Under the pieces are notes generated by a model. The model had not been told where the DNA came from, did no database searches, and worked only from the letters and a program-made list of their open reading frames with translations. Shown in pieces: positions 14,211 to 15,723 of a stretch of 64,000 nucleotides of DNA. Origin of the DNA: Candidatus Hydrogenisulfobacillus filiaventi (GTDB taxonomy: Bacteria > Bacillota > Sulfobacillia > Sulfobacillales > R501). A program made the position numbers and the translations under genes. Location: positions 2,046,001 to 2,110,000 of the forward strand of contig LR778114.1 in assembly GCA_902809825.1 (NCBI GenBank), read 5' to 3'. How positions within the stretch are numbered: position 1 is the stretch's first letter; each line of letters opens with the position of its first letter.

Positions 14211-14308
14211 TTTTCCCGCGCGGCTCCCGGCCGCGGGTGCGGTGGGGCGCCGACCTGCCGGATCCGGCCCCGGATCCCGCCAATCCCACAAAACGCGAGG
14301 TGAACACG

Positions 14309-14932
14309 ATGGCCACAGAACTCAGCCCGCAGGTCGCGGTCCAGCAGGCCAACGAGGGGCAGCTCATCTTCCTGGACGTGCGCAGCGCGCGCGAATACGC
14401 CGGGGTCCGCCCCGCAGCCGCCTACAACTTCCCTTACCATGGCCGCAACTGGGGCGCCATGGTGGAGCGGGCCCTGCAGGGCCAGAAGCCGCCCATGGCC
14501 CTCTTCGCCGGCGACGCCGAGGTGGCGGAGGCCGCCCGGCGCGAGCTGGAAGGGGTGGGGCTGGAGGTGGTCTTCGTCTGGGACCGGGGAATTGAAGCCT
14601 GGAAGGAGGCCGGCCTCCCGACGGTCGAGGTGGCGGATGTCACCGTGGACGAACTGGCTCAGGACCTGGAGCGCTACGAAATCATCGACGTGCGGGAGCC
14701 CTACGAGCACCGCATGGGCGTCATTCCCGGGGCGCGCCTCATCCCCATGAACCAGCTGCCGGAGGTGATCGGCACCCTGGATCCGTCACGGCCCTACGCC
14801 ATCGTCTGTGCCTCCGGCAGCCGCAGCGCCTCGGTGGCGGCCTGGATGTCCCAGCAGGGCTTCAAGGTGGCCAATGTGGTCGGGGGAATGAATTCCTGGA
14901 TGCGGGCACGGCATCCTATCACTCGACCGTAG
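14309..14932 (+). CDS. Tandem rhodanese-domain sulfurtransferase
   Basis: A 207-residue cytoplasmic protein with two rhodanese modules. The first (about 1-105) has LIFLDVRSAREYAGVRPAAAYNFPY but lacks the active-site cysteine (LFAGDAEVAEA). The second (about 110-207) has EIIDVREPYEHRMGVIPGARLIP and the active-site loop CASGSRSASVAAW with the catalytic Cys, then VVGGMNSW. Members move sulfane sulfur from persulfides. ATG 14309 follows GAGGTGAACACG. Its promoter contains a CsoR-type palindrome and a CsoR/CstR-family regulator lies divergently, as in persulfide-detoxification loci. Confidence 0.85.
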   Translation: MATELSPQVAVQQANEGQLIFLDVRSAREYAGVRPAAAYNFPYHGRNWGAMVERALQGQKPPMALFAGDAEVAEAARRELEGVGLEVVFVWDRGIEAWKEAGLPTVEVADVTVDELAQDLERYEIIDVREPYEHRMGVIPGARLIPMNQLPEVIGTLDPSRPYAIVCASGSRSASVAAWMSQQGFKVANVVGGMNSWMRARHPITRP

Positions 14933-14983: not shown

Positions 14984-15012
14984 CATGGCGCGCGCAGAGG
15001 GGGTGAGACAGG

Positions 15013-15675
15013 GTGGCGCGGTTGATTTCCGACGATGTCCGCTCCCAAATTGTGGAGTTCTTTAAGGGCCTGAAGGATCCGGTCACCATCGAGATCTACC
15101 GGGGACCGCAGGCGGAGCTGGCGGACGTGATGGTGCAGCTGGCCCAGGAACTGGCGGAGACCACCGACCGCCTGTCGGTCCGCGAAACCGACCAGGTGCC
15201 GGAATTGGAGCCGTTCCACGCCAAGCCCCTCACGGAAATTACGGGTCCCGTCAGCGTGCTCCTCGACCACCGGCAGCAGCCGACGGGGGTCCGTTACCTC
15301 GGCCTGCCCAGCGGGCACGAGTTCGGAGCCTTTCTCGAGGATATCCGGGACATCTCCAACCATACGGTGGGCCTGAGCCAGGGCGCCAAGGACAAACTGG
15401 CGACCTTGACCCGGCCGGTGCATATCCAGGTGTTTACCACCCCGACCTGACCCTACTGTCCCCGGGCGGTTCGCCTGGCACACCAGATGGCAATGGCCAG
15501 TCCGATGGTGATCGCGGATATGATTGACGCCCAGGAGTTCATGGACCTCTCCAACCAGTACGACGTGTACGGGGTTCCCAAGTCCGTCGTCAATGGGGAG
15601 CTGGACGTCACCGGAGCGGTTCCCGAGAACAACCTGCTGCAGCTCGTCATGCAGGCCGGCGGTCAGGGCGCCTGA
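15013..15675 (+). CDS. PDO/glutaredoxin-like oxidoreductase, in-frame TGA read as selenocysteine (U146-P-Y-C149)
   Basis: GTG 15013 (GAGGGGG upstream) opens a frame interrupted only by TGA at 15448-15450 and closed by TGA at 15673-15675: 220 residues, the normal size for a two-module protein disulfide oxidoreductase (PDO). The first module (1-105) lacks CxxC. The second begins RPVHIQVFTTPT, then TGA, then PYCPRAVRLAHQMA, i.e. the PDO active site CPYCP with TGA for the first Cys. Coding continues with the cis-Pro loop YDVYGVPKSVVNG and a C-terminal helix. A SECIS-like hairpin follows the TGA. TGA is an ordinary stop in many neighbouring genes, so selenocysteine insertion is the simplest reading. 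The alternative is a truncated 145-residue protein. Confidence 0.85.
15448..15482 (+). promoter_or_regulatory. Candidate bacterial SECIS element for the PDO TGA
   Basis: After the TGA, CCGGGC (15462-15467) pairs with GCCTGG (15473-15478) around the loop GGTTC, and TGT (15457-15459) pairs with ACA (15480-15482) below a small internal loop. The loop starts 17 nt after the TGA and its first two bases are G. This agrees with the bacterial SECIS rules known for fdhF-type genes: hairpin just downstream of the codon and a G at the loop start. Confidence 0.65.
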
Positions 15676-15694
15676 CCCCGGTTCCCGATGCCGA

Positions 15695-15723
15695 CCAGGG
15701 GGAATGCTCCCCCTGGTTTTTTT
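15695..15723 (+). terminator. Rho-independent terminator after the seleno-PDO gene
   Basis: A perfect 9-bp stem (CCAGGGGGA at 15695-15703 with TCCCCCTGG at 15708-15716), loop ATGC, then seven T. It begins 19 bp beyond the TGA at 15673. A terminator here, and not after 15450, supports the longer reading frame. Confidence 0.93.

Follow-up and report, generated by a model that had tools for sequence, protein, structure and literature searches.

A selenocysteine-containing member of the TIGR02187 (PDO_seleno_TRX) family very probably encoded in Candidatus Hydrogenisulfobacillus filiaventi R50

In the present study, we analysed a window of 64,000 nucleotides (the whole stretch of DNA, positions 2,046,001 to 2,110,000 of contig LR778114.1) from Candidatus Hydrogenisulfobacillus filiaventi R50, whose genome comprises a single contig with a length of 2,570,337 bases. 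The locus holds a plus-strand frame that runs from a GTG to a final TGA and gives 220 residues when an internal TGA is read through (Table 1). Direct reading of the frame confirmed that this TGA, at residue 146, is its sole internal stop, as an earlier sequence-only reading had stated; the codon context is ...FTTPT-U-PYCPRAVRLAHQ. The terminator was also found where that reading had put it, after the long frame. In the alignment of 17 orthologues, 42 columns are invariant across the frame. No promoter was found upstream of the gene. Its upstream neighbour is a rhodanese-like gene, and downstream lie def (peptide deformylase) behind the terminator, a nicotinamidase gene and a two-component system. 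The rhodanese-like protein (window 14237-14932) has a rhodanese domain in its C-terminal half only (131-231), and the N-terminal half is without a family match.

Table 1. Features of the selenoprotein gene, in window positions
Feature	Position	Strand	Basis or remark
Selenoprotein CDS	15013..15675	+	GTG start, aligned with the starts of relatives; TGA stop at 15673-15675
Shine-Dalgarno-like AGGGGGTGA, 6 nt before GTG 15013	14998..15006	+	Putative, from reading of the sequence
TGA = Sec146, first residue of UPYC	15448..15450	+	TGA in 28/30 and TGC in 2/30 orthologues
TGT = resolving Cys149 of UPYC	15457..15459	+	Invariant in 17 aligned orthologues
Bacterial SECIS-type hairpin CCGGGC-GGUUC-GCCUGG, 6 bp, 5-nt loop	15462..15478	+	Frozen stem codons; Sec/Cys contrast
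Pro189, expected cis-Pro of the second thioredoxin fold	15577..15579	+	Invariant in aligned orthologues; fold model
Intrinsic terminator, 11-pair stem and T-run	15693..15718	+	3' of the long frame

The read-through protein matched NCBIfam TIGR02187 with 213.5 bits (cut-off 185), residues 7-215 being aligned on profile positions 2-209 of 209. Since this match is full-length, the portion 3' of the TGA is the conserved active-site domain rather than a chance continuation. At residues 137-210, Thioredoxin_3 and Glutaredoxin of Pfam were matched. In addition, TIGR03143 was matched by residues 3-203 on profile positions 347-545; that family couples this domain to a further part (profile 1-346), which, from the family name, is presumably a thioredoxin-reductase-type flavoprotein. 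An AlphaFold2 model built with 17 orthologues as input (pLDDT 92.6) has two thioredoxin folds, and its top PDB matches (TM 0.80-0.85) were the protein disulfide oxidoreductases (PDOs) 1j08 and 1a8l and the AhpF N-terminal domains 5h29 and 6il7. By organism, the structural matches were PDOs of Pyrococcus, Aquifex and Aeropyrum and AhpF N-terminal domains of Enterococcus, Salmonella and E. coli, and sequence search yielded the same PDB list.

Members of TIGR02187 are recognised by CXXC or UXXC in the second thioredoxin fold together with a cis-Pro, and the R50 protein has both (U146-PYC149 and P189). Classical two-site PDOs carry CXXC in both folds, whereas the N-terminal half of the R50 protein has none. 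The fold and the position of the C-terminal CPYC are thus shared with the archaeal and Aquifex PDOs (1a8l, 1j08, 2ayt), but where these have Cys in both folds (CQYC in the first fold of 1j08), the R50 protein has ELAD, aligned with CQYC by sequence search, and its C-terminal Cys is replaced by Sec. The claim that every PDO landmark is kept therefore held for the cis-Pro loop and the terminal helix and failed for the N-terminal CXXC, which is missing from all Bacillota-clade Sec sequences that were read. Because this motif is absent, the protein is predicted to have one redox site only and is in plan nearer to the AhpF N-terminal domain than to PDO, and the N-terminal fold, having lost its CXXC, is probably structural in role. 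The AhpF N-terminal domain (1zyn, 5h29, 6il7) has the fold in common (TM 0.80-0.81 by query length) and likewise carries its only redox site in the second fold; it differs in being fused to a flavoprotein, whereas the R50 protein is free-standing and contains Sec.

The gene itself terminates with TGA, so this codon is a stop in R50 and its context decides the decoding; a reading of UGA as Trp was ruled out for the same reason. As a check, the sequence-only reading had proposed a genome search and had named the lack of selA, selB and selC (tRNA-Sec) as grounds for giving up a selenoprotein. The search found the complete set: tRNA-Sec with anticodon UCA (74.8 bits), selB (330 bits, cut-off 242), selA (571 bits) and selD (352 bits). 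The selD gene (L149, G000:C1:633392-634324, plus strand) is itself a selenoprotein gene with an in-frame TGA, translated GUGCK. On the minus strand, trxB (G000:C1:1373930-1374962) and selB (1372050 to about 1373931) lie together (L001); the trxB frame ends where the selB frame starts (MRPVIFGTAG), the two apparently overlapping or abutting. They apparently form one transcription unit, and the decoding of Sec would thereby be tied to what may be an electron donor. An ordinary tRNA-Cys gene is found at about 828,7xx (L145), and a second tRNA-Sec-like gene at G000:C1:364062-364151, minus strand (L008, L150:559-652), scores 56 bits (gathering 47); its anticodon is GCA and its discriminator base is T. 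It fits a selC*-type tRNA-Cys, and this class has been described before in Firmicutes. In 19/31 relatives there are DNA matches to it, of varying quality and in some cases possibly tRNA-Sec itself.

A homologue was found in all 31 genomes sampled of the same order, and in 30 order-level orthologues, which come from related acidophilic bacteria, the codon at the Sec146 position was read. Of these orthologues, 28 have TGA and two have TGC (L031 in G026 and L035 in G018), the latter from one genus. Above the cut-off, selA is present in 27/31 genomes and missing from G003, G018, G026 and G028. Both Cys orthologues thus sit in genomes without selA above cut-off, and their genus is the only sampled genus without any. 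The TGA-bearing genomes G003 and G028 are drafts of 97% and 96% completeness with congeners (G005, G016) that have selA, and the absence in these two is likely a draft gap. If genomes are taken as independent, two Cys genomes would both be found among the four selA-less of 31 with a probability of 6/465 = 0.013; since G018 and G026 share one genus, this is really one Cys event.

Of 78 wider database relatives in which the motif could be read, 38 have TGC, 21 have TGT and 19 have TGA at this codon. These results agree with the claim that homologous proteins have Cys in place of the TGA, at the first Cys of CPYC, and the alignment of homologues, another check that had been suggested, revealed Cys/Sec exchange at exactly this codon. 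The tree requires five Sec/Cys changes, four of which are forced by well-supported branches. In it, the Cys pair is nested inside the Sec clade, and two Chloroflexota Sec sequences, L087 and L116, stand separately, each beside Cys relatives, which probably represents separate Cys-to-Sec changes. These two (Anaerolineales / Anaerolineaceae) are two-site PDOs with the N-terminal CQYC kept and Sec at the C-terminal site. The record from which L087 comes has selA; none was found in that of L116, which is a set of genome fragments amounting to 2.6 Mb.

Against this background, we considered whether UGA might be read as Cys, giving CPYC, by the selC*-type tRNA or by near-cognate readthrough, perhaps as a fallback under selenium scarcity. 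The genome does hold such a tRNA, with its GCA anticodon and discriminator T, and according to a review, a second SelB is presumed to recognise selC* tRNA-Cys, some of which carry an opal anticodon. However, the GCA anticodon pairs with UGC/UGU, the genome also has a genuine tRNA-Sec(UCA), and the two orthologues in selA-less genomes switched to TGC rather than rely on readthrough. Decoding as Cys is consequently held to be improbable.

The SECIS-like hairpin that had been placed just after the codon is present, but it begins 11 nt past the TGA and not immediately behind it. Its apical loop, GGUUC from 15468, lies 17 nt past the TGA, and both the spacing and the loop G agree with the rule for bacterial SECIS elements (about 16-37 nt). 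Since the stem pairs are nearly all invariant, the hairpin was judged by freezing of synonymous codons and by the contrast between Sec and Cys sequences. Among the 28 TGA orthologues, the proportions of same-residue pairs sharing the codon at +4, +5, +8 and +9 were 0.86, 1.00, 1.00 and 0.86, whereas at other codons between -20 and +39 they were at most 0.63. These frozen stem codons are those of Arg/Gln and Arg/Ser (both 1.0) and of Pro and Leu (both 0.86). Standard pairing was found in 97.6% of stem cells against 14-52% in slid controls. Furthermore, when 96 distinct sequences were compared, the complete stem of six pairs was formed in 33/35 with Sec and in 1/61 with Cys (Mann-Whitney on stem pairs, p 4e-16, kinship ignored). 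The Cys sequences encode nearly the same peptide, and so the protein does not account for this difference. L087 and L116, far from the Bacillota clade, have TGA with the same hairpin, and the TGA orthologues L034 and L042 form only 4/6 pairs in register. There was almost no covariation in the stem, in which a single pair varies and only on one of its sides; most of the sequences share ancestry and at the same time encode conserved residues, which accounts for this.

Termination at UGA is always in competition with the insertion of Sec, and a functional truncated product of 145 residues, with the downstream part as a relic or a separate gene, was also weighed. Such a product would be without any of the active site; it is downstream of the TGA that the protein is most conserved, and no listed ORF starts in this frame after it, which makes this reading very improbable. 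A lone in-frame stop is a classic sign of a sequencing error or a pseudogene, but the same TGA recurs in 28/30 orthologues taken from many independent assemblies, the frame is otherwise conserved with its 42 invariant columns and a SECIS-type hairpin tracks the TGA, so that the probability of either is negligible.

The selenoprotein reading was therefore strengthened at each point, by the Sec apparatus, by conservation of the TGA, by Cys/Sec exchange and by the hairpin. TGA in 28/30 orthologues, TGC in the genus without selA and the full hairpin in 33/35 Sec against 1/61 Cys sequences together argue that the gene encodes a selenoprotein. From this comparison of sequences, UGA 146 is almost certainly decoded as Sec, and the explanation as a whole, a selenocysteine-containing member of TIGR02187 (a homologue of PDO and of the AhpF N-terminal domain), appears highly probable.

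In the mechanism that we propose, SelB and Sec-tRNA(Sec) would bind the hairpin and decode UGA as Sec, and the product of 220 residues would have one redox site, U146-P-Y-C149, in its second thioredoxin fold. Sec146 would attack disulfides of substrates or peroxiredoxins, and Cys149 would resolve the mixed selenenylsulfide; attack by the first and resolution by the last residue of such a motif is standard thioredoxin-fold chemistry. A thioredoxin-reductase-type flavoprotein would re-reduce the protein, as takes place for the AhpF N-terminal domain within AhpF. This electron route is suggested by the likeness to AhpF, by the joining of domains in TIGR03143 and by the presence in the R50 genome of TrxB (385 bits) and eight members of the AhpC-TSA family. 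By this analogy, the protein would most likely use its UPYC site to carry electrons between a flavoprotein of the thioredoxin-reductase type on one side and peroxiredoxins or other disulfides on the other; the particular partners, flavoprotein and peroxiredoxins, are a guess for which belief and doubt are evenly balanced. No partner gene stands beside the selenoprotein gene in the neighbourhood inspected within the window. More tentatively, and with the balance leaning against it, the Sec form of Sulfobacillales could be a PDO specialised to one site: with Sec gained at the C-terminal site, this lineage of Bacillota would have lost the N-terminal redox site, the protein would be a free-standing, faster shuttle of the AhpF-N-terminal type from TrxB to peroxiredoxins, and Chloroflexota would have gained Sec separately with both sites kept.

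The earlier impression that a selenocysteine PDO is new was not sustained. NCBIfam names TIGR02187 PDO_seleno_TRX, and its UxxC family has been in the literature since 2006, when a survey counted two members, from Carboxydothermus hydrogenoformans and Symbiobacterium thermophilum (PMC1794560). A 2022 review lists the 'homolog of AhpF N-terminal domain (Grx-like domain protein)', TIGR02187, with UxxC, as a selenoprotein family (PMC9312934), and a 2026 review has the same entry with Asgard archaea added (PMC13188914). The gene is thus a well-supported new example of a selenoprotein kind first reported in 2006 and not a new kind, and it opens no new mechanism. The known selenoproteins of the family (e.g. 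ABB15282.1; Carboxydothermus, Symbiobacterium), compared by their published descriptions, share with the R50 protein UxxC, two thioredoxin folds and Sec as first residue of the active site; the R50 protein differs in its host lineage, the Sulfobacillales, and may differ in its N-terminal fold without CXXC. R50 belongs to the Bacillota, grows on H2 at 55 C and pH 3 and has group 1b and group 1h/5 [NiFe] hydrogenases; the main text of the paper describing it contains no word beginning with 'selen' (PMC10080006). In Sulfobacillus, to which R50 is related, formate dehydrogenase (PMC4378227) and PrxU (PMC7409299) are on record as selenoproteins. Aerobic acidophilic H2 oxidisers hence join the hosts of a family of which the 2006 survey had no more than two members. 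Automatic annotation may end the gene at residue 145, by which the active site would be lost. The relatives offer a clean natural experiment, in which a genus without selA changed UGA to UGC and the full hairpin is gone, and across phyla Sec or Cys predicts the hairpin.

Three paralogues were also seen in R50. In one that belongs to this family but has diverged strongly (L148, G000:C1:1221303-1221851, minus strand), an in-frame TGA likewise replaces the first active-site Cys (VSPT-U-QFCPQVV), and two more, L146 and L147, have Cys (CPHC and CPQC).
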